The notes under the pieces are model-generated. The model was not told the DNA's origin. It ran no database searches and saw only the letters and a program-made list of their open reading frames with translations. Both the position numbers and the translations under genes were made by a program. Shown here in pieces: positions 1 to 9,483 of a stretch of 9,483 nucleotides of DNA (its first letter is position 1; each line of letters opens with the position of its first letter). The stretch comes from Candidatus Zymogenus sp. (GTDB lineage Bacteria > Desulfobacterota > Zymogenia > Zymogenales > Zymogenaceae): assembly GCA_030613285.1 (NCBI GenBank), contig JAUWME010000054.1:1-9483 (forward strand). The letters are read 5' to 3'.

Positions 1-905
1 CCCAGATGTCCACTCTCCTCGATTATAAGTACAGGCAGCGCTGGGCCGCAGAGAGAGGAGGCCACGGGAAGGGAAAAGATCAACACGGGAAAAACGGTGA
101 AGACCTGATAATCCCCGTCCCAGTTGGAACAGAGGTCAAAGACGTCGATGAGGAAGGGCTGATAGTCGATATTACCGAGCCAAATAAAAAAATATTAATC
201 CTCAAGGGAGGCAGGGGGGGGAGAGGAAACGCCCGCTTTACTACCTCAACGAACAGAGCGCCAAGAGAATTTGAAAAGGGTGAGGCCGAAAACGAGATAC
301 GAATACAGCTCTCGCTTAAGGTCATTGCCGATGTTGGCATTATCGGGTTTCCCAACGCCGGTAAATCTACCCTGATAAGCAAAATATCCAAGGCAAAGCC
401 GAAGATTGCCGACTATCCTTTTACTACCCTTACCCCCACATTAGGAATTGTGTCGCTAACTGGCGATAGAACTCTCGTGGTTGTTGACATCCCCGGAATT
501 ATCGAAGGGGCGCACAAGGGCGTTGGGCTGGGAATAAGATTTTTGAAACATGTGGAGCGGGCAAAGGTTCTAATTCACCTTTTGGACTTGGATCCACAAA
601 ATGGAAGAGACCCCGCCAAAGATTATGAAATGCTCAACTTTGAAATGAAATCCTTCAGTGAAAAACTCTCTCAAAAGCCCAGGGTGGTGGCGGCAAACAA
701 AATTGACCTTCCCGGCTCCCAAGAAAGATTGGAGGAGCTTAGAAATGAACTGGGCAGATTAGATATTGACATTTTTCCAGTTTCTGCTATCAATAGGGAT
801 GGAGTAAAAGAGCTCCTCAACGAAGTGTATAAAATGACAATAGAAATAGATATGTCGAAAGATGAAGACGCGAATGGAGGCGAAAAGGTTGGTGATGGGA
901 GTTAA
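1..905 (+). CDS. obg: GTPase Obg/CgtA, 5'-truncated by the window
   Basis: Obg is an essential GTPase that binds the 50S ribosomal subunit and acts in its maturation and in stress signalling. Counting from the first Met in the window (position 6), residues 1 to ~105 are the rest of the glycine-rich Obg fold (HGKNGEDL, GGRGGRGNARF). The G domain follows: G1 GFPNAGKST at 114-122, the YPFTTL switch at 137-142, G3 DIPG at 161-164, G4 NKID at 231-234 and G5 SA at 260-261. The Met at position 6 aligns inside the Obg fold (family pattern: NLxTLLDFxY), so it is not the true start and about 50 residues lie upstream of the window. The protein ends soon after the G domain with an acidic tail and has no OCT-type C-terminal domain, as in many proteobacterial short forms. 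Its last codons overlap the proB start region, which suggests translational coupling. Confidence 0.96.
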   Translation, partial: QMSTLLDYKYRQRWAAERGGHGKGKDQHGKNGEDLIIPVPVGTEVKDVDEEGLIVDITEPNKKILILKGGRGGRGNARFTTSTNRAPREFEKGEAENEIRIQLSLKVIADVGIIGFPNAGKSTLISKISKAKPKIADYPFTTLTPTLGIVSLTGDRTLVVVDIPGIIEGAHKGVGLGIRFLKHVERAKVLIHLLDLDPQNGRDPAKDYEMLNFEMKSFSEKLSQKPRVVAANKIDLPGSQERLEELRNELGRLDIDIFPVSAINRDGVKELLNEVYKMTIEIDMSKDEDANGGEKVGDGS

Positions 906-2058
906 AGATAAACCAACTTATTTTAATAGTCAAATGCGACAAAAGCTGATCGGCAACGTAAAAAGGGCCGTAATAAAAATTGGGAGCGGCGTCCTGACAG
1001 CAAAGGACGGCCTCAATATCGCCGTTATCGAGAGAATTGCCTCGGAAATTGCAATCCTCAAAAGGCGGGGGATCGAGTTTGCAATTGTCTCCTCAGGATC
1101 AATCGCAGCAGGTGTGCCCAAGCTCGGTTTTAGTCAACGACCAACGGCAATGGCGGAGCTTCAGGCCGCGGCCTCAGTCGGGCAGACATCCCTGATGAGG
1201 GCATACGAACGTTCATTTGAAAAATACGACATCATGGTTGGTCAGATACTCCTGACAAACAGGGATTTGAGTTACAGACACAGATTTATCAACGCAAAAA
1301 ATACAATCTCAACCCTTTTGGAACTGGGTATCATCCCAATAATTAACGAAAACGACACGGTGGTTGTAGATGAAATCCGCCTCGGTGACAACGATTTTCT
1401 CGCCGCCCAGATAATAAACCTTGTTGGTGCTGACCTCCTTTTGCTTTTGACCGATACCGGCGGGTTTTACGACAAAGACCCAAACCTCAACAACGATGCG
1501 AAACTAATATCGGTAGTCGAAAATATTACAGAAGAGGTAAGCCACCTTGCCGCGGATACCTCAACTAGTGTCGGCAGCGGCGGGATGAAGACAAAGGTCG
1601 AGGCCTCCGAGATGGCCGTCGAAATGGGAATCCCAGCAGTAATTGGAAACGGACTTCAAGAAAACTCCATCATCGATATCTTTGAGGCCAAAGATGTGGG
1701 GACGCTTTTTCTCCCCAAAAAAGAGGGATTGAAAAGCAAAAAACACTGGATTAGATATTCACCAAATATCAACGGATCGATTGAGGTGGACGGGGGCGCC
1801 TTTGAGGCTATCGCCAAAAGAGGAAAGAGCCTCCTCCCCGGCGGCATCGTAATGGTAAACGGAAAGTTCAAAGAAAAAGAGATTGTCTCCTTGATGGGCC
1901 CCGAAGGCCAGGAATTTGCCAGAGGGCAGGTCAATTACGACTATCACGATCTCCTAAAAATGAAAGGAAAAAAGACCGATGAGATAAAGAGGGAACTGGG
2001 CAATAAATATCCCGACGAGGTCATACATCGGGACAATCTTGTCCTTATCGACAGATAA
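895..2058 (+). CDS. proB: Glutamate 5-kinase ProB with PUA domain
   Basis: ProB phosphorylates L-glutamate with ATP, the first step of proline synthesis in the cytoplasm. Numbering from the internal Met at 934, the amino-acid-kinase domain shows VIKIGSGVLT near residue 13, VSSGSIAAG at 52-60, NENDTV at 138-143, LGDNDFLAAQ at 150-159, LTDTGGFYDKDP at 172-183 and the GSGGMKTKVEA loop near 214. A PUA domain follows from about residue 279 to the end. The start is uncertain. The open frame reaches back to ATG 862; TTG 889, GTG 892 and ATG 895 lie 8-14 bases after a TGGAGG at 875-880; and ATG 934 gives MRQKLIGNVKR, which aligns best with the usual ProB N-terminus but has no clear ribosome site. I chose 895, which overlaps the obg stop by 11 bases. 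proA, its usual pathway partner, does not follow here. Confidence 0.93.
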   Translation: MGVKDKPTYFNSQMRQKLIGNVKRAVIKIGSGVLTAKDGLNIAVIERIASEIAILKRRGIEFAIVSSGSIAAGVPKLGFSQRPTAMAELQAAASVGQTSLMRAYERSFEKYDIMVGQILLTNRDLSYRHRFINAKNTISTLLELGIIPIINENDTVVVDEIRLGDNDFLAAQIINLVGADLLLLLTDTGGFYDKDPNLNNDAKLISVVENITEEVSHLAADTSTSVGSGGMKTKVEASEMAVEMGIPAVIGNGLQENSIIDIFEAKDVGTLFLPKKEGLKSKKHWIRYSPNINGSIEVDGGAFEAIAKRGKSLLPGGIVMVNGKFKEKEIVSLMGPEGQEFARGQVNYDYHDLLKMKGKKTDEIKRELGNKYPDEVIHRDNLVLIDR

Positions 2059-2063
2059 GCCCC

Positions 2064-2165
2064 TGCCGTAAATTCTGTAAGATGGATTGTGGAATGTTGA
2101 AAGGTTGGTGAAGTTTGGGAGTTGGGGTTGTTGCTGTAAATGTCGTTGGGAGGATTGCCGTAAAT
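2064..2165. repeat. G/T-rich spacer with three copies of TGCYGTAAAT
   Basis: TGCCGTAAAT occurs at 2064-2073 and 2156-2165, and the one-mismatch copy TGCTGTAAAT at 2132-2141. The stretch between them is unusually poor in C and rich in G and T on the + strand, with several GTTGGG/GTTGGTG words. I see no convincing gene or terminator in it. It could be decayed sequence or a weak protein-binding array; spacing between copies is irregular (68 and 24 bases). Confidence 0.4.
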
Positions 2166-2255
2166 TTAAGGGTCATCCGATTAATGTGTATCTGAACAAA
2201 ATGGAAAAGTACTTTTTAAGGATTTATTAGAAAGATAGATGGTGGATTTGAGGGC

Positions 2256-2343
2256 AGCAGAATCTCGAATTTTGTCAAAGGCGAGCAAAGCTCGTCGCCG
2301 TAGGCGATCGAGACCCTTGACAAAATTCTTAAGGGATTCTGCT
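2256..2343. repeat. 88-base palindromic element with two internal hairpins (REP/MITE-like)
   Basis: The outer stem is AGCAGAATC (2256-2264) pairing perfectly with GATTCTGCT (2335-2343). After an asymmetric internal loop (3 bases left, 7 right), a second stem pairs AATTTTGTCAA (2268-2278) with TTGACAAAATT (2317-2327). Two perfect small hairpins stand side by side inside: CGAGC-aaa-GCTCG (2282-2294) and TCGCC-gta-GGCGA (2295-2307). TCTCGA (2263-2268) and TCGAGA (2308-2313) offer an alternative pairing, as do GGCGA (2280-2284) and TCGCC (2295-2299). The cloverleaf-like layout is typical of small dispersed palindromic elements. There is no transposase, and I see no target-site duplication next to the ends. 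Dispersal in the genome cannot be judged from one copy. Confidence 0.75.
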
Positions 2344-2348
2344 ATAAT
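2317..2348 (+). promoter_or_regulatory. Candidate sigma70 promoter in the right arm of the palindrome
   Basis: A perfect TTGACA (2317-2322) and a perfect TATAAT (2343-2348) preceded by TG at 2340-2341 (extended -10, TGCTATAAT) lie in the right arm and its immediate flank. The spacer is 20 bases, longer than the usual 16-18, so the extended -10 may do most of the work. Transcription would run into leuD with a leader of about 165 bases. It is the best promoter I can see for the leuD-to-truA cluster. I see no leucine-rich leader peptide or T-box sequence in that leader. Confidence 0.5.
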
Positions 2349-2507
2349 AGAAACAAGGCGGGAAAAATGTTTTAGATTTATCATCGATAGACGTCTGAAT
2401 ACTACTGATTGTAATAATGCCATAAAACTGTTAAGCAAAATAACATTTTTCTCCGCTTAAAAACAATAACGTTTAGGTACTCAAAATCAGGAAGAAACAT
2501 ATAATAA

Positions 2508-2513
2508 AAGAGG
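2508..2513 (+). promoter_or_regulatory. Ribosome binding site that fixes the GTG start of leuD
   Basis: AAGAGG lies 8 bases before GTG 2522. The reading from that GTG begins [17 protein letters not shown], which matches the usual N-terminus of the short LeuD family, so GTG rather than a later ATG is the start. Confidence 0.65.
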
Positions 2514-2521
2514 AATGGTCA

Positions 2522-3016
2522 GTGAAATACAAAGGTAAAGTTTACAAGATGGGCGACGACATAGACACAGATGCGATAATACCAGCGAGGTTTCTCAACA
2601 CATCTGACCACGAAGAGCTGGGTTCCCACGTCATGGAGGATTACGCCCCGGATTTTAGGGGGAGCGTTCGCGCTGGCGGAATACTCGTTGCCGGAAGAAA
2701 CTTCGGATGTGGCTCTTCGAGGGAACACGCCCCCGTGGCAATTAAGGTCTCTGGGGTACCAATTGTTATCGCCGAAAGCTTTGCAAGGATTTTTTACAGA
2801 AATTCCTTTAACACTGGGCTTGCCATCATGGAATCCCCGGAGGCAGTAAAAGGGATTAAGAAAGGGGACGAGGTGGAGGGGGACACCGAAAGCGGAGAGA
2901 TAAATAATCTTACCACGGGAGAAAAATTTCAGGCAAAATCAATACCGCCATTTATGGCCGAACTTATTTCGGATGGCGGGCTTATCCCACATTTAAAGAA
3001 AAAACTTGAGAAGTAG
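2522..3016 (+). CDS. leuD: 3-isopropylmalate dehydratase small subunit
   Basis: With the iron-sulfur large subunit LeuC, this protein isomerises 2-isopropylmalate to 3-isopropylmalate in leucine synthesis. At 164 residues it is the short LeuD/HacB-like type that is common in archaea and many anaerobic bacteria, rather than the ~200-residue enterobacterial type. The swivelling aconitase-like domain shows [17 protein letters not shown] at 11-27, [12 protein letters not shown] at 60-71 (substrate-binding loop) and [11 protein letters not shown] at 84-94. It starts with GTG. leuC, normally just upstream, is not in the window; a structured non-coding gap lies there instead. leuB follows after 4 bases. 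Confidence 0.95.
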
Positions 3017-3020
3017 ATAA

Positions 3021-4127
3021 ATGAAAAAGCAAATAAAAAAACATCAGATAGCACTGCTGCCCGGAGACGGAGTGGGCGTTGAGGTAACACGGGAAGCTGT
3101 AAAGGTCCTTAAGGCGGTATCGTCCAATGTTAATGCCAACATTAATGAAATTGCGTTTGATTTTGTTGAGTGTCCAGTAGGGGGTGCGGCGATAGATGAG
3201 TACGGTACTCCACTGCCGGAGGATACAATGAAAGTAGTTGAAAAATCGGCCGCAATCCTTTTGGGGGCAGTGGGCGGCCCAAAGTGGGACGATCTCCACA
3301 CAAACCAACGACCAGAGGCAGCGCTTCTGAAACTGAGGTCATCCCTTGGACTTTTTTGCAATTTACGACCGGCGGTTATCTTTCCCGGTCTTGAGGGCGC
3401 CTCAACCATCAAGGAGGAAGTGATTCGAGGTATCGATATTATGGTGGTAAGGGAGCTTACGGGGGGGATTTATTTTGGGGAACCCAGGGGGATAAAAAAA
3501 GGGAGAACCGTACGGGTGGGAATAAACACCTTATCGTATGAGGAATCCGAAATTCGGCGGATTGCCAAAATGGCCTTTAAGGTTGCAAGTAAGCGGAAAA
3601 AAAAGGTAACATCGGTCGACAAAGCCAATGTCTTGGAATCGATGGCACTCTGGCGGGAGGTTGTAACCAAAGTGGCAAGAGACTTTCCCGATGTAGAATT
3701 GGAACATATGTACGTGGACAACTGTGCCATGCAGTTGATAAAATCCCCAAGAGATTTCGATACTCTTTTGACAACGAATCTATTTGGTGATATACTAAGC
3801 GACGAGGCCGCAATGTTGACAGGGTCCATTGGAATGTTGCCCTCTGCGAGTTTGAGGGGTGAGGGTGGCCAGGGGATGTATGAGCCTGTACACGGAAGTG
3901 CCCCGGATATTGCGGGAAAGTCAATTGCAAATCCCATAGCATCGATATTGTCCGCAGCGATGATGTTGAGGTATTCCTTCTTGGCCGATGAGGCGGCAGA
4001 TGCCATTGAGAAAGCGGCGAGGAAGGCAGTGGCCGAGGGCTTGATGACCAAAGATATCTTCAGGGGAGAGGGAAAAGAGGTAACTACCTCTGAGATGGGC
4101 GATTATATTGCAGAAAATCTTGAATAA
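3021..4127 (+). CDS. leuB: 3-isopropylmalate dehydrogenase
   Basis: LeuB oxidises and decarboxylates 3-isopropylmalate with NAD+ to give the precursor of leucine; it is a cytoplasmic, metal-dependent enzyme. The 368 residues match the family length. Visible motifs are LLPGDGVG at 12-19, the substrate-binding arginines in [13 protein letters not shown] (R106, R116) and R144 in the [14 protein letters not shown] segment, VDKANVL around K201, YVDNCAMQL at 231-239, and the metal-binding aspartates of [13 protein letters not shown] (D257, D261) with D233. [10 protein letters not shown] near 291-300 is the cofactor-loop signature. The ATG at 3021 follows the leuD stop by 4 bases, with GAGAAG as a plausible ribosome site inside the end of leuD. 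The extra lysine-rich N-terminus (MKKQIKKHQ) is unremarkable. Confidence 0.97.
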
Positions 4128-4149
4128 GTAGAGGAGAAAAAGGGAAAAT

Positions 4150-5172
4150 ATGGCTGATAAAAAATATTGTGTTGCGGTGGCAGGTGCAACCGGTGCCGTT
4201 GGAAGCGAGATGATAAAGACCTTGGAGATGAGGAAATTTCCCATAGGGGAGTTGAGACCCCTTGCGTCTGTGAGATCGAAGGGTAAGACCATTAAGTTTA
4301 ATGGTGAAGATGTTACGGTTGGTTTGCTTTCCAAAGATTCATTTTCGGGTGTGGATGTTGCCCTTTTTTCTGCCGGTGGTGACAGAAGCATCGAGTTTGC
4401 CCCATCCGCCGCAGATGCAGGGGCCGTAGTTGTCGATAACTCCAGCGCCTTTCGGATGGAAGACGATATTCCCCTCGTGGTGCCGGAGGTTAACCCCCAC
4501 AGAATTGCCGATTACAAAAATCGGGGAATTATTGCCAACCCAAACTGTTCCACCATACAGATGGTGGTGGTACTAAAACCAATTCACGATGCCGCAAAGA
4601 TAAAAAGGGTTGTGGTGTCCACATATCAGGCGGTTTCCGGCTCTGGGCTTGTGGCCATAGACGAACTTACCGAGCAGTCAAGGGCGGTTTTAGACTCCAA
4701 AGATTTTATTCCCTCGGTTTATCCGCATCAAATTGCCTTTAACAGCCTTCCCCACATTGATTCTTTTCTTGAAAACGGGTACACTAAAGAAGAGATAAAG
4801 ATGACAAACGAGACCATCAAGATATTGGAGGATGAGAGTATCGCTGTTACCGCCACGACGGTGAGAATCCCCGTTTTTTACAGCCACAGCGAGTCTGTCA
4901 ACATTGAGACAGAAAAAAAACTCACTGTTTCTGATGTAAGAAAAATCCTTGGAGGTGCCCCCGGTGTTGTTGTTCAAGACGATCCCCAAAAAAATATCTA
5001 TCCCCTTGCAACCAATGCCGCAGGAAAAGATGAGACCTTTGTGGGGAGAATAAGGGAAGATTTCAGCATCGCAAACGGGATTAATATGTGGATTGTTTCT
5101 GATAACATCAGAAAGGGAGCGGCGCTAAATGCCGTACAGATAGCCGAATATCTTATTGAGAAGCATCTGTAG
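4150..5172 (+). CDS. asd: Aspartate-semialdehyde dehydrogenase
   Basis: Asd reduces aspartyl phosphate with NADPH to aspartate semialdehyde, the branch point to lysine/diaminopimelate, threonine and methionine. The 340 residues fit the Gram-positive/deltaproteobacterial form of the enzyme. The nucleotide-binding loop GATGAVG is at 12-18, phosphate-binding R102 lies in DNSSAFRM, the catalytic cysteine is C133 in NPNCSTIQ, and Q160 lies in STYQAVSG. R239 and H246 lie in RIPVFYSHSESV, with H246 the likely general base. AGGG at 4141-4144, 5 bases before ATG, with GAGGAG further up, supports the start. It lies 22 bases after leuB, an arrangement seen in many proteobacteria. Confidence 0.97.
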   Translation: MADKKYCVAVAGATGAVGSEMIKTLEMRKFPIGELRPLASVRSKGKTIKFNGEDVTVGLLSKDSFSGVDVALFSAGGDRSIEFAPSAADAGAVVVDNSSAFRMEDDIPLVVPEVNPHRIADYKNRGIIANPNCSTIQMVVVLKPIHDAAKIKRVVVSTYQAVSGSGLVAIDELTEQSRAVLDSKDFIPSVYPHQIAFNSLPHIDSFLENGYTKEEIKMTNETIKILEDESIAVTATTVRIPVFYSHSESVNIETEKKLTVSDVRKILGGAPGVVVQDDPQKNIYPLATNAAGKDETFVGRIREDFSIANGINMWIVSDNIRKGAALNAVQIAEYLIEKHL

Positions 5173-5180
5173 TTTAAAAA

Positions 5181-7688
5181 ATGAGCATTGCAAAAATAGA
5201 AAAAGAGTATCTCGAACTTCTGGAAAAGGGGAGCATCCCTGTAGATGAGCGACTTTCTATCTCCAAGGGAATACTTGCCGACGGAACTCCTACCCCTCTA
5301 CGTGTTTTAGCAAGGCTTTTTCTTGATAATGCAATTGTTATAAAAGAAGAGGCAAAAAAGTCAATTCTGAGACTTCAGGAGAGTGACCTTTCAAAAATCG
5401 CATCTGATGATACTACCCATTCATCGCTCCTTCTTCTTTTGGCCAAACATTTTCATGGCTCCCCCGCTGTGGGAATCTCAATTATCTCAAACAAAAACAC
5501 CACGGAGAAGGTACTTTTCTACCTTCAGGGAAGAGGTGATGAGGTTGATGATGCTTCGGATGAGGAGTTTATAGTTGGAGGGGGGGGTATTCAGGTTGAA
5601 AGCCATGATGATGTAGAGATTAGTGAGGAAATAGAAATTGAGATTAGTGAGGATATTGAGATTGGTGAAGAGAAGGATGTTGAGATTGGTGAGGAGATAG
5701 AGCTTAATATTAGTAATAGTGAGGGAATCGGACTTGAAGTTCCATCAGAGGGGGATATTGATGGAGATATTCCCTCGGCAGGGACACCTGATTTGACAGC
5801 TAATTCCAAAGCAAGACAAAGTGAAGAAGTTTTCAAGTTTGTCCCGGAGAGGTATACCGACGGTGATATGGAGGTAATCATCGAGTTGGAGGAGACCGAT
5901 GATTTTGATGAGGAGGAGGAGATAGTAATTAGTGATAAGGGTGCTGTTGCTACTGACGAGTTTATCCAAGACGCGCCCCAAAGAGATGAGATGATCACCG
6001 ATGAGGAGATAAAAAGCGCTGATATAGATATTGGGATTACACACCACGATGAGGGTGACCAAATAATCGAGGATGACGTTCTTTTTGAGCAAAAGGAACA
6101 TCTTGATGAAGAGGGGGGTGGATTTTCAACTACCATTGACAGCATTGAAGACAAAGTAGGCGAGATATTTGATATCGATCTTGGGGATACTGATACCCAA
6201 GGAGACGGGGCATTGGGGGGCACTGAAGGAGGAATGGAGTTTGAATCGGGCTTAGATATTCCCGGAATGGAGACCCCTGTGGAAGGAAATTCGCCGCTTG
6301 AATCCCTAGGGCCAATTGGTGGTTTTGGCGGGGGAGTGGACGAGCAACTGACGAATACAGGCAGAGAGCAAACTGATGTATCTACTCCTCTTTCCGAAAA
6401 GAGGTTTATTACCCATCTTGCCACCAAAAGAGATGCCGGTAAGGTAACGGTTAAGGAGTTATTTGCAAAGGTGGCAAAAATCGCTGTTCCTGTGGCTGTA
6501 GTTGTTTTGGTTTTTGTTGCGTTGTGGGTGTTTTGGCCGAAGAGTGAAGTCTCTGTTGAGGCATTTAACAACGGGGTCAATCGAGTTTTTGTAAAAGCTA
6601 AAAATGAGGGTTTAAATCTAAAACTCAATAATCCCTTTCCCAAGGGAAGCTTTATTTACAAATGGGAGCCTGGTAAGGTTCAGGAGGAGAAAGGTTATAG
6701 TCCCAATGGTAAAGCATACGATGATAAAAAGCTAAAGGAGGATCTGTTAGGTTTTAAAGTAAAATATGAAAGGGAGCTGGAATATGAAAAGATTTCAGAA
6801 GAGCTTTCTATCAAAAGAAAAAATTTGTCCACGGCTTTAAAAAAGAGCAAAGAGATAGACGAAAAACTCTCCCGTTTAGAAGCAGAAAATGATAGCTATC
6901 TCAAAAAATATAGAGGAGAAAGTCTAAAAAGAGTCGTAGTTCTTGAAGAGCGGGGCAATGAGATTAGGGAGCTGAAGAGGTTATTTGAAAAAGAGAAGCT
7001 GAAGATTAAAAAGATAGAAAGTGAGATGGCCGACGTAAGAAGAAGAGTTGCGGACTTTGAGAGAGACAATATTCCAACGGCAGATGACCACGGTTATTAC
7101 GCGAATAAACAAGAATTGGATGAGTTGACAGCGGAGTATAGAAAGATAAAGCCGAAATTTGATAATTTTAGTTTGCGTTATAATGGTATCCTAAATAAGC
7201 TGGAAAACAAATACAAACAAAAATTGAGCATTATTGATAGAATCATAGAAATTGGTCAAAAAGTTTCCGAATTAGATAGAGAAAAAAACAAAATTGAAAA
7301 AAGAAAAAGGGCTTTGAGGGCGAAGATTGGAAAACTTGAAAATAGTTTATACGATCTTGAAGACAAAAATGCCACGGGAGAATTGATTACTGATGAGAAT
7401 CTCCCCATTTATCTTTTAGTAAGTAAATACATTAGGGAACAAGAGAAATTACAAGTAGATAGCGGGCTGAAAGGGAATGATGAGGTTTCTTATTTTGAAA
7501 CATATACAATAAAACAAAAGAAAGCAGATATAACAATTACGTTAGAGAACAAAGAGGGGACAAAAGAGAAGAAAAAGTATTCTACTACTTTTATGAGGAT
7601 GATTACGAAAAAGAAGATTCTCATGTTTCAATGGGATGTAAAGACCACCGAGTGGGTTCTTACATCGATCTCTGAAAAAAAGAAGTAG
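5181..7688 (+). CDS. Uncharacterised single-pass membrane protein: acidic linker plus coiled coil
   Basis: I do not recognise this 835-residue protein. Residues 1-115 look alpha-helical and mildly repetitive, reminiscent of HEAT/LRV-like repeats (low confidence). Residues ~118-420 are extremely acidic and low complexity, with EISEE/EIGEE repeats at ~146-176 and Gly/Pro-rich stretches near 340-385. A basic patch (KRDAGKVTVKELFAKVAK) precedes one clear membrane helix at 434-452, which suggests N-terminus inside and C-terminus outside. Two strongly charged, lysine-rich coiled-coil stretches follow (~525-629 and ~644-727), then a ~100-residue tail that looks beta-rich. There is no signal peptide, LysM or TPR that I can see. 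The ATG is 8 bases after the asd stop without a clear ribosome site, so reinitiation is likely; ecfT follows after 13 bases. Its place between asd and the truA side recalls fimV of gammaproteobacteria. A cell-envelope scaffold is possible but unproven. Confidence 0.85.
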   Translation: MSIAKIEKEYLELLEKGSIPVDERLSISKGILADGTPTPLRVLARLFLDNAIVIKEEAKKSILRLQESDLSKIASDDTTHSSLLLLLAKHFHGSPAVGISIISNKNTTEKVLFYLQGRGDEVDDASDEEFIVGGGGIQVESHDDVEISEEIEIEISEDIEIGEEKDVEIGEEIELNISNSEGIGLEVPSEGDIDGDIPSAGTPDLTANSKARQSEEVFKFVPERYTDGDMEVIIELEETDDFDEEEEIVISDKGAVATDEFIQDAPQRDEMITDEEIKSADIDIGITHHDEGDQIIEDDVLFEQKEHLDEEGGGFSTTIDSIEDKVGEIFDIDLGDTDTQGDGALGGTEGGMEFESGLDIPGMETPVEGNSPLESLGPIGGFGGGVDEQLTNTGREQTDVSTPLSEKRFITHLATKRDAGKVTVKELFAKVAKIAVPVAVVVLVFVALWVFWPKSEVSVEAFNNGVNRVFVKAKNEGLNLKLNNPFPKGSFIYKWEPGKVQEEKGYSPNGKAYDDKKLKEDLLGFKVKYERELEYEKISEELSIKRKNLSTALKKSKEIDEKLSRLEAENDSYLKKYRGESLKRVVVLEERGNEIRELKRLFEKEKLKIKKIESEMADVRRRVADFERDNIPTADDHGYYANKQELDELTAEYRKIKPKFDNFSLRYNGILNKLENKYKQKLSIIDRIIEIGQKVSELDREKNKIEKRKRALRAKIGKLENSLYDLEDKNATGELITDENLPIYLLVSKYIREQEKLQVDSGLKGNDEVSYFETYTIKQKKADITITLENKEGTKEKKKYSTTFMRMITKKKILMFQWDVKTTEWVLTSISEKKK
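5616..5692 (+). repeat. Degenerate tandem repeat coding for EISEE/EIGEE units
   Basis: GAGATTAGTGA occurs at 5616-5626 and 5640-5650, and the variant GAGATTGGTGA at 5658-5668 and 5682-5692. The spacing is 24, 18 and 24 bases, all multiples of six, so the frame is kept. The repeats encode alternating acidic and isoleucine residues in the linker of the large membrane protein and mark a region that can expand or contract. Confidence 0.7.
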
Positions 7689-7701
7689 TTTTTTAAAAGA
7701 T

Positions 7702-8499
7702 ATGAAATTTCTTCAAGACATAACGTTGGGTCAATATATGCCCCAAGATTCGTTCATCCACGGATTAGATCCCAGAGTAAAATTTATTGCCTTGATTCTT
7801 TTTATGGTCACACTTTTTTTTATTGAAGCCCCATTAAAATTTCTTTTGATGGGGCTTGTTATTCTGTTGATTATACAGTCGTCCAAGATCCCCTTGGGAT
7901 TCGTCATAAAGGGCATAATCCCATTTGTCTGGCTTTTCCTCTTCGCGGCCTTTGCCCATTTCTTTTTCACCCCCGGAACCTCAATCAAACCTTTTCCCAT
8001 ATGGTTTATAAATGTTACTTTTGAGGGAGTTACTAATGGAACTATCATTACGTTAAGAATCCTCCTCATTATAGTTTTATCGTCCATGTTGACCTTAACC
8101 ACAACCCCGTTGGAGCTTACAACGGCTCTAAAGCGGGTATTGTCTCCCCTTAAGCGTTTTAAGATCCCCGTCAATGATTTTACAATGATGATGATGTTGA
8201 CGATAAGGTTTGTTCCTATTCTTCTTCTTGAGGCCCAGAGAATCATTAATGCCCAGAGATCGAGGGGGATAAACTTTGAGACAGGTGGTTTGATCAAACG
8301 AGCAAAAAAACTCGTTCCAATTTTGATCCCCCTGTTTAATCTGTCGTTTATACGGGCAGAAGAGCTTGCAATTGCAATGGTTTGCCGGGGCTATGCCACA
8401 GGAAAAGAGAGATCGAGCTTTAGAGAGCTCCGGTTTTCCACGTCCGATCTTTTTGCAATTACTTCGGTAATCCTTGTAATACCTTTCTTTTTCCTTTAA
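7702..8499 (+). CDS. ecfT: ECF transporter transmembrane coupling protein EcfT (CbiQ/BioN family)
   Basis: EcfT is the membrane subunit that couples the ATPases of an energy-coupling-factor importer to a vitamin-binding S component. The 265 residues are strongly hydrophobic. The family's N-terminal LDPRVKF-type motif is at 22-28, membrane segments lie roughly at 28-60, 68-92, 113-135 and 250-265, and the long cytoplasmic coupling helices carry the two signature motifs AQRSRG (184-189) and AMVCRGY (225-231). These correspond to the usual Ala-Arg-Gly pairs; here the Ala is Ser and Cys, while both Arg-Gly pairs remain. No ATPase gene is in the window. A BioY-like S component begins two genes downstream, so biotin is the likely substrate (BioN role). 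It may instead serve several S components. Confidence 0.9.
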   Translation: MKFLQDITLGQYMPQDSFIHGLDPRVKFIALILFMVTLFFIEAPLKFLLMGLVILLIIQSSKIPLGFVIKGIIPFVWLFLFAAFAHFFFTPGTSIKPFPIWFINVTFEGVTNGTIITLRILLIIVLSSMLTLTTTPLELTTALKRVLSPLKRFKIPVNDFTMMMMLTIRFVPILLLEAQRIINAQRSRGINFETGGLIKRAKKLVPILIPLFNLSFIRAEELAIAMVCRGYATGKERSSFRELRFSTSDLFAITSVILVIPFFFL

Positions 8500-8500
8500 A

Positions 8501-9244
8501 ATGAGAAATATAAAGCTGATTCTCTCCTACGATGGTACCCATTTTTACGGATGGCAAGTCCAGCCAAGGGAGAGGACCGTCCAAGGGGTTGTCGAAAAAT
8601 GTATCAATACGATGGTCGATGCTAAAACAAGGATTACGGGTTCGGGGAGAACGGATGCCGGGGTTCATGCTTTGGCGCAGGTTGCAAATTTTAGGACTGA
8701 GAGTCGGATTGATTGTAAGAGCTTTATGAAGGGTCTAAATTCCCTTTTACCACAGGACGTGAGGGTTACAGACGTTTTGGAAGAAGAGGAGGATTTTGAC
8801 TCAAGGAGGTCTGCGACATCGAGAAGGTATCGATACTTGATTTTTAATGGTGAGGGGGTGCCGTCCCCTTTTGTCAGAAACTACGTTTGGAGTGTCAGAA
8901 GCTACCTTGATACCGATACCATGCAGGATGCAGGGAAGGAACTTTTGGGTGTCCACGATTTTTCTTCCTTTGTTGGGAGGAAAAACGAGACGGACAGTAC
9001 CGTAAGAGAGGTTTTAAATTTTACCGTAAAGCGGATTAATGAAGATTTCATTTCCATTGAGATTGAGGCTAATGCCTTTTTGAGGCACATGGTCAGAAAT
9101 ATTGTGGGGACCTTATTTGAGGTGGGACTGGGGAAAATGGGGCCGAATGAATTTCTGGGCGTTTTAAATGCCCAGGACAGGAGGGCGGCAGGAAGTACCG
9201 CACCGCCTCAGGGGTTGTATCTTGTTGAAGTAAAGTATTTTTGA
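8501..9244 (+). CDS. truA: tRNA pseudouridine(38-40) synthase TruA
   Basis: TruA converts uridines 38, 39 and 40 of the tRNA anticodon stem-loop to pseudouridine. The 247 residues are a usual family length. The N-terminal YDGTHFYGWQVQP is at 10-22, and the catalytic aspartate is D52 in GSGRTDAGVHA (47-57). Further family motifs are SRRSATSRRYRY near 101-112, HDFSSFVG in the second half and FLRHMVRNIVGTL towards the end. The C-terminus APPQGLYLVEVKY is typical. The ATG starts 1 base after the ecfT stop, with no ribosome site of its own in the pyrimidine-rich end of ecfT, so it is probably translated by coupling. Confidence 0.97.
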   Translation: MRNIKLILSYDGTHFYGWQVQPRERTVQGVVEKCINTMVDAKTRITGSGRTDAGVHALAQVANFRTESRIDCKSFMKGLNSLLPQDVRVTDVLEEEEDFDSRRSATSRRYRYLIFNGEGVPSPFVRNYVWSVRSYLDTDTMQDAGKELLGVHDFSSFVGRKNETDSTVREVLNFTVKRINEDFISIEIEANAFLRHMVRNIVGTLFEVGLGKMGPNEFLGVLNAQDRRAAGSTAPPQGLYLVEVKYF

Positions 9245-9268
9245 AAAGACGTCTTGAAAAGAAAAGCC

Positions 9269-9317
9269 CCTTGAAGAGACAATACATATTAAAGAGAAAA
9301 TATCCTTGAAGAGACAA
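9269..9317 (+). repeat. Direct repeat CCTTGAAGAGACAA, period 35 bases
   Basis: The 14-base CCTTGAAGAGACAA is present perfectly at 9269-9282 and 9304-9317, each followed by AT-rich sequence containing ATTAAA. Related TTGAAAAGA words lie at 9241-9249 and 9254-9262, so four TTGAARAGA units occupy the truA-bioY gap. The second unit contains the proposed TTG start of the bioY-like gene. A 10-base palindrome AAGACGTCTT sits at 9246-9255. A local duplication or an operator are both possible. Confidence 0.55.
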
Positions 9318-9483
9318 GAATCATTAAAAATATTTGTTTTGGCTTCTATGTTCGCTGCCCTGACAGCGGCTGGGGCGTTCACACCGCTGCCCTTGCCCTG
9401 GGTCCCCCGGCCGCTTCCCACACGGTGGGTTTTGCTGGCGGGGTTGATATGCGGCGGGCGGGGGGGGCCCTTATCGCAAATAT
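9306..9483 (+). CDS. bioY: BioY-like biotin S component, 3' end beyond the window
   Basis: Only the first 59 residues are present. From TTG 9306 the reading begins MKRQESLKIFVLASMFAALT and continues into AAGAFTPLPLPWVP, VLLAGLI and a final PLSQI. This follows the BioY start: a membrane helix ending FAALTAVGA, a Pro-rich loop, then VLLAGLLLG...GALSQ. BioY binds biotin in the membrane and works alone or with EcfT and ATPases. AAAGAGA at 9291-9297 is a suitable ribosome site for TTG 9306; ATG 9348 would remove much of the first helix. Unlike BioY relatives, the loop reads VPRPLPTRWVLLAG where TLQ is usual, and the next turn is GGRGGPLSQ. G+C is about 70% from 9361 on, so base errors near the end or a divergent paralogue are possible. 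Confidence 0.65.
   Translation, partial: MKRQESLKIFVLASMFAALTAAGAFTPLPLPWVPRPLPTRWVLLAGLICGGRGGPLSQI

Follow-up and report, generated by a model that had tools for sequence, protein, structure and literature searches.

The subject of this work is an 835-residue protein, here called X, encoded in a 9,483-nucleotide stretch of a Candidatus Zymogenus sp. genome (Desulfobacterota; GenBank assembly GCA_030613285.1, contig JAUWME010000054.1, positions 1 to 9,483 of the forward strand), which we refer to as the window. The open reading frame (ORF) of X is exact and intact, with its ATG at 5181 and its stop codon ending at 7688. Family models place it in the local order leuD-leuB-asd-X-ecfT-truA: the leuB, asd, truA and LeuD subfamily models score above their NCBIfam cut-offs, and CbiQ/EcfT scores above the Pfam cut-off. 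X itself approaches the cut-off of no Pfam or NCBIfam model (all nine members of its family were scanned against Pfam), and a plasmid search gave no match. The original prediction, made from the letters alone, of an unrecognised protein of this length between asd and ecfT-truA is therefore borne out in its ORF, its neighbours and its lack of a family match. The features of the gene and its immediate neighbours, in positions of the window, are:

4150..5172, + strand: asd, 5' neighbour of X (NCBIfam asd models)
5181..7688, + strand: X, whole gene, 835 residues, a predicted bitopic membrane protein (ORF, homologues, conserved locus)
5181..5531, + strand: head of X, residues 1-117, an eight-helix HEAT-like block (AlphaFold2 helices, conservation, profile homology)
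5532..6452, + strand: acidic linker, residues 118-424, predicted to be disordered (charge, predicted local distance difference test or pLDDT)
5835..5936, + strand: linker island A, residues 219-252, ...RYTDGDMEVIIELEETDDFDEEEE... (conservation; largely lost in the relative G003)
6108..6203, + strand: linker island B, residues 310-341, F-x4-D-x-IE-x-K/R...F, with a low-confidence helix at 315-329
6453..6539, + strand: membrane helix region, residues 425-453, preceded by a conserved stretch at 403-424
6723..7364, + strand: predicted periplasmic coiled-coil hairpin, residues 515-728 (AlphaFold2, conservation)
7365..7685, + strand: tail, residues 729-835, a helix and four predicted strands, with T-x-M-R...F-x-W...T-x-WV conserved
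7702..8499, + strand: ecfT/CbiQ-type T component of an energy-coupling factor (ECF) transporter, 3' neighbour of X (Pfam CbiQ above cut-off)
8501..9244, + strand: truA (NCBIfam model above cut-off)

A search of 5.8 billion proteins, with 7994 candidates scored, recovered eight full-length homologues of X (99-100% coverage, 31-71% identity); a homologue, JW984_00670, comes from a metagenome-assembled genome called Deltaproteobacteria bacterium. A profile search of proteins returned seven matches including X, none of them new, and missed P0007 and P0008. Among 59 related genomes (G and L numbers are our labels for genomes and loci), the protein search found X in three, all within a single family: the window genome, G001 of the same genus, and G003 of the same family, whose copy (L039 8842-11088) has the same architecture. 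In that search, the 55 genomes of the phylum outside this family gave no match to X. Nor did G002, the remaining family member; as this 89% complete genome likewise has no match to asd or truA, its lack of X is uninformative. A partial profile match in G027 (5.3e-4), confined to the coiled-coil region, was discarded as a likely coiled-coil artefact. Contig scans with X and its alignment confirmed no relative in a database from which near records may be missing. Genomic context was read for the three X genes of the window, G001 and G003. The order asd-X-ecfT-truA is present in all three family genomes where asd and truA were found, and leuD-leuB-asd-X-ecfT-truA followed by bioY is kept in G001 (L038) and G003 (L039). 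The expectation that related genomes would keep the gene between asd and truA is thus true within the family of X. X is a real, lineage-specific protein family, and its architecture is more than chance because it is conserved end to end in the eight homologues, at 31-71% identity, and in G003.

The structure of X was modelled with AlphaFold2 on a nine-row alignment (overall predicted template modelling score, pTM, only 0.34), and its C-terminal 382 residues were modelled alone (pLDDT 78, pTM 0.49). The head is the best conserved part of the protein (mean conservation 0.75, versus a lowest value of 0.47 in the linker), with eight predicted helices over residues 1-117 at pLDDT mostly 70-84 (about 60-84 overall). 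The linker is predicted to be disordered, with pLDDT under 50 over residues 118-435 save for the low-confidence helix at 315-329. It carries a net charge of -78 over residues 119-408 in X, with values from -31 to -88 across all nine members, and holds conserved islands at 219-252, 310-341 and 403-424. The E-I-x-I-acid repeats seen in the linker correspond to tandem units of 24 bases within 5616-5697, and the homologues vary in the length of this stretch. An antisense ORF (5591-6643, - strand) overlaps the conserved X gene from the linker through the membrane helix into the first portion of the periplasmic part. Next in the chain comes the single hydrophobic segment of X, at 434-452 (a mean hydropathy of 2.81, as against 1.32 for the second-highest stretch), over which AlphaFold2 places a helix at 425-450; one strong segment of this kind occurs in each of the nine family members. 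The 20 residues before the helix contain three to six K/R, and two to four come after it. As the basic residues before the segment outnumber those after it in 9/9 members, the positive-inside rule alone predicts a cytoplasmic N-terminus, and with it a cytoplasmic head and acidic linker, a membrane helix and then a periplasmic part.

The C-terminal part is predicted to begin with a short helix and strands, to continue as two long, interrupted coiled-coil arms and to finish with a helix followed by four strands. The long helices at 515-728 have pLDDT of 76-93 from residue 531 and lower before it, and the turn of the predicted hairpin is conserved near 638-645 as G-x-x-AN-K/R-x-E. Among 118 relatives, the tail was found in X alone, in three genomes. 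The closest matches in structure searches were coiled-coil hairpins with chance-level Z scores, and Foldseek gave no E value of 0.001 or better, the rows shown being mostly coiled coils and other long helices. Sequence searches of the PDB gave best values of 0.7 for the head (PP2A scaffold, a HEAT-repeat protein) and 0.54 for the tail, both too weak to use; the helix and strand order of the tail is reminiscent of NTF2-like domains. The four parts originally read from N to C, namely a helical head, a very acidic region, a membrane helix and a coiled coil, are confirmed by the sequence and the models, and the predicted cytoplasmic side of head and linker agrees with that reading. Its "small tail outside" has given way to a predicted two-arm hairpin, and most of the C-terminal 380 residues are expected to lie outside.

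The head is the part of X that shows homology to other proteins. A profile of ten X heads matched 11 places outside X in 10 of 118 genomes (E values up to 0.01, best 1.6e-10), and 10 of these 11 places lie in open frames of 339-390 residues (one of 282) in other families of the phylum. Most of the matching proteins have two blocks, the first of them HEAT-like. The two-block family includes G000:C112:6197-7309 in the window genome itself and the proteins at L080, L081 and L085. An hhalign comparison of the X heads with 13 two-block proteins gave a probability of 98.7 and an E value of 2.6e-16 (for a single comparison) over 104 columns at 15% identity. In the reverse direction, a profile of the two-block family matched 9/9 X proteins at about residues 4-121 (to 218 in P0008) with 31.7-59.9 bits, its match in X itself covering residues 4-119. 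Elsewhere in the X proteins it gave nothing better than 0.34 (E value for nine sequences), and as it covered the first-block region only in all nine, the second block was not found in X. Homology thus ties the head of X to the first block of this unnamed HEAT-like family. Pfam HEAT matches lie below the cut-off in three of the four two-block proteins scanned; the N-terminus originally described as helical repeat-like is HEAT-like and not TPR. X and the two-block proteins share the first block, a low-complexity and often acidic middle and the same genomes. The two-block proteins, at about 300-425 residues, have a second conserved block and no membrane helix by eye; in X the second block is missing, and a membrane helix and a periplasmic part are present instead.

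We surveyed 148 genomes of the phylum for this family, found a match at 1e-20 in 57 of them, and examined the best 30 loci over up to 1.5 kb on each side of the gene, with contig ends and short flanks making all counts lower bounds. MglA adjoins a family member in at least 14 of these loci and a SPOR protein in at least 20. MglA lies beside 11 and SPOR beside 18 of the 21 two-block proteins, as against three and two, respectively, of the nine second-block-only proteins; for the tie of SPOR to the first block (18/21 vs 2/9), p is 0.0017. The Pfam SPOR domain is above cut-off in 8/8 upstream proteins scanned, and also in L080 and L081. The first block, which is the part common to X, is thus accompanied by an envelope-anchoring SPOR protein, with MglA as a further neighbour for about half of the two-block proteins. 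The window genome has the HEAT-like - MglA pair. On its contig C112 (L084), the two-block gene lies directly upstream of a GTPase gene whose product matches solved MglA proteins, those of Myxococcus xanthus and Thermus thermophilus, at 4e-74 to 1e-67; immediately upstream of this pair, close to where the contig ends, only a 54-codon in-frame SPOR fragment is readable. The MglA of this genome (L084 4998-6179) has an extra, partly acidic C-terminal tail of about 200 residues, a little like the linker of X. The full SPOR - two-block HEAT-like - MglA cluster recurs in several families of the phylum (L080, L081, L082, L085, L098, L099, L102, L106 and L107) and is fragmentary in L084 and L100; several clusters are preceded by genes that read as EF-G-like and pantothenate-kinase-like (CoaX). 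Literature titles and abstracts, a source whose coverage leaves out most subscription papers, yielded no paper on an MglA and SPOR or an MglA and HEAT module.

The SPOR proteins themselves differ between the family of X and other families. Outside it, the seven read (L056, L054, L051, L057, L053, L106 and L102) are all bitopic by hydropathy, and in five the N-terminal side is clearly acidic. Those of G001, G002 and G003 (L085 8278-9087; L080 6725-7633; L081 6419-7225) all look like lipoproteins by eye, the hydrophobic segment ending in a cysteine. This hints that in these three genomes the SPOR protein lacks a membrane-crossing acidic link, and that X, where it is found, might supply both such a link and a copy of the head.

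A link to type IV pili had also been proposed for X. We discarded PF00437 as a test of pili, as it matched in 4/4 family genomes but in 14/14 controls too, and replaced it with the PilB and PilT models of NCBIfam, run on 10 of the ATPase ORFs found. PilT is above cut-off in 4/4 family genomes and PilB in 3/4 (G001, G002 and G003); in the window genome, a PilB copy cut by the contig end scores 632 bits (cut-off 675.65) and another copy 558. The expected co-occurrence with type IV pilus genes, here the type IVa ATPases, is therefore present. Roadblock (MglB-type) proteins occur in 4/4 family genomes versus 3/14 controls.

The original prediction rested its FimV analogy on position as well as layout, the gene order asd-fimV-truA being established in Pseudomonas. 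We found truA in 56 and asd in 57 of the 59 genomes, some of the asd matches being weak paralogues. In seven, the two genes share a contig at a distance of no more than about 4 kb, a lower bound given broken contigs. Among these seven, the interval holds X and ecfT in three, unrelated ORFs in two (an 811-residue protein with PQQ beta-propeller and ankyrin matches in G018, a 600-residue protein with an fn3 match in G033) and nothing in two (G055 and G057, whose coordinates put asd next to truA, the asd of G057 being distant at 34% identity). In G058 (L045), no X separates asd from the CbiQ/ecfT gene directly after it, and a different contig carries truA. The supposed FimV position is thus a variable site across the phylum; sharing it with fimV is therefore no argument for shared function, and we rejected equivalence by position. 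In sequence, X gave no LysM match in Pfam and no FimV model in NCBIfam at E values up to 1, matched no TPR model, and LysM, TPR and FimV are absent from the families shown for the nine members (25 of 38 shown). X has the single membrane helix and the extensive acidic region, predicted on the cytoplasmic side, of FimV/HubP proteins; where FimV has a C-terminal cytoplasmic TPR domain, X is predicted to end in a coiled coil and a beta tail. The fimV model TIGR03505 matched in 0/59 genomes but also in 0/14 controls, and with its positive controls silent this search is uninformative. Equivalence to FimV is supported neither by domains nor by position.

The reading that we favor, at a probability of roughly 0.4, is that X is a single-pass inner-membrane adaptor whose MglA-linked head docks on a polarity module and which anchors that module, or reports to it, through the periplasmic hairpin. 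The head would dock on the MglA/HEAT-like module in the cytoplasm, binding MglA or another of its members. The acidic linker might let the head move, or might gather partners through its conserved islands. X would fix the module or relay it across the inner membrane through hairpin and tail, either of which could touch the cell wall or proteins of the envelope, for instance the type IV pilus machine. The polarity or motility link of the original prediction gains independent, if indirect, support from the frequent position of the head family beside MglA and from the type IVa pilus ATPases that co-occur with X. A more ambitious version, which we regard as rather improbable, would make X a transenvelope effector, built as one chain, of an MglA - HEAT-like - SPOR module that is as yet undescribed: with the SPOR partner of the family apparently turned into a lipoprotein that has no cytoplasmic part, X would have assumed the task of crossing the membrane, and the outcome would be a polar hub of opposite build that evolved independently of FimV/HubP.

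Several observations weigh against the adaptor reading. X lies beside no mglA, SPOR or pilus gene, and in 3/3 contexts it sits in an amino-acid/ECF/truA operon; its link to MglA would come through homology of the head and the gene context of a paralogue. The second block, absent from X, may be where MglA binds. The association of MglA with the first block is not significant (Fisher p 0.44 for the above counts), and 10 of the 21 two-block relatives (L104, L105, L108-L113, L116 and L121) have no MglA in the stretch examined; the family therefore cannot be called a strict partner of MglA. As the top scorers of the survey, with proteins used to build the profile among them, the 30 loci are not a random sample; eight of them also served to build the SPOR profile, and without these eight the SPOR counts become 10/13 vs 2/9 (p 0.027). 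The HEAT label derives from Pfam matches below cut-off, and HEAT-like blocks are common scaffolds that can switch partners.

Among the other explanations, the likeliest, if still an unlikely one, is that X is an envelope scaffold apart from polarity, for example an adaptor for the ECF transporter (ecfT, bioY) or for envelope assembly, with a head that has its own partner. The gene ecfT directly follows X in 3/3 genomes where X was seen in context, bioY follows truA in G001 and G003, and a coiled coil with a beta domain is common in envelope scaffolds. However, the ecfT that follows asd without X in G058 indicates that the transporter gene needs no X, and no ECF genes lie beside the relatives of the head in the loci read by eye. 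We consider it improbable that X truly replaces FimV/HubP in function, as a polar landmark that binds the wall outside and gathers clients inside with the chain order reversed. The same four kinds of part, the shared asd-truA interval and the presence of type IVa pilus ATPases speak for it, and HubP and FimV are themselves described in PMC12918733 as sharing a common layout and little sequence. Yet, beyond the missing LysM, TPR and FimV matches and the unrelated or empty intervals elsewhere in the phylum, no peptidoglycan-binding domain was identified in X, and X was found in one family only. It is equally improbable that X senses force or span across the envelope, in which case the hairpin would serve as a ruler or tether to the cell wall or outer membrane, with the head doing no more than oligomerising X.

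Downstream of X, ecfT and bioY stand on either side of truA in G001 and G003, so that an ECF transporter of the biotin type is split around truA; the ecfT/bioY entries are 7702-8499 in the window, which stops short of bioY, 13543-14097 in L038 and 12667-13197 in L039. A conserved ORF of about 320 residues follows 3' of bioY (L038 14094-15059; L039 13190-14137) and looks helical repeat-like by eye; its L038 copy has no Pfam match.

Detailed knowledge of MglA polarity control comes mainly from Myxococcus. The recurrent SPOR - HEAT-like - MglA cluster together with X would provide candidates for the missing partners that tie this bacterial Ras-like switch to the cell wall. While the FimV analogy is unproven, the MglA - SPOR module is a more specific and testable lead.

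Comparison with known systems brings out both the analogy and its limits. Like FimV/HubP, X has one membrane helix, a long acidic cytoplasmic region, a cytoplasmic end of helical repeat type and a gene in the asd-truA interval; it differs from them in its reversed chain order, its HEAT-like head and the absence of a LysM, TPR or FimV model match. GltG and GltJ of the Myxococcus gliding machine resemble X in being bitopic, with a cytosolic binding domain and a periplasmic part; the cytosolic domain of GltJ binds MglA. For GltG, PMC3169522 describes an FHA domain in the cytosol that is connected through the membrane to a domain in the periplasm. GltG differs in its FHA and TonB-like domains, neither of which is among the Pfam matches of X. 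In M. xanthus, MglA-GTP activates type IV pili at one pole by binding the TPR end of SgmX, a protein described as consisting of TPRs only (PMC7668184). X differs from this all-TPR protein in its membrane helix and its HEAT-like head, for which contact with MglA is hypothetical; what the two have in common is a helical-repeat domain, which in SgmX, as described there, is the part that faces MglA.
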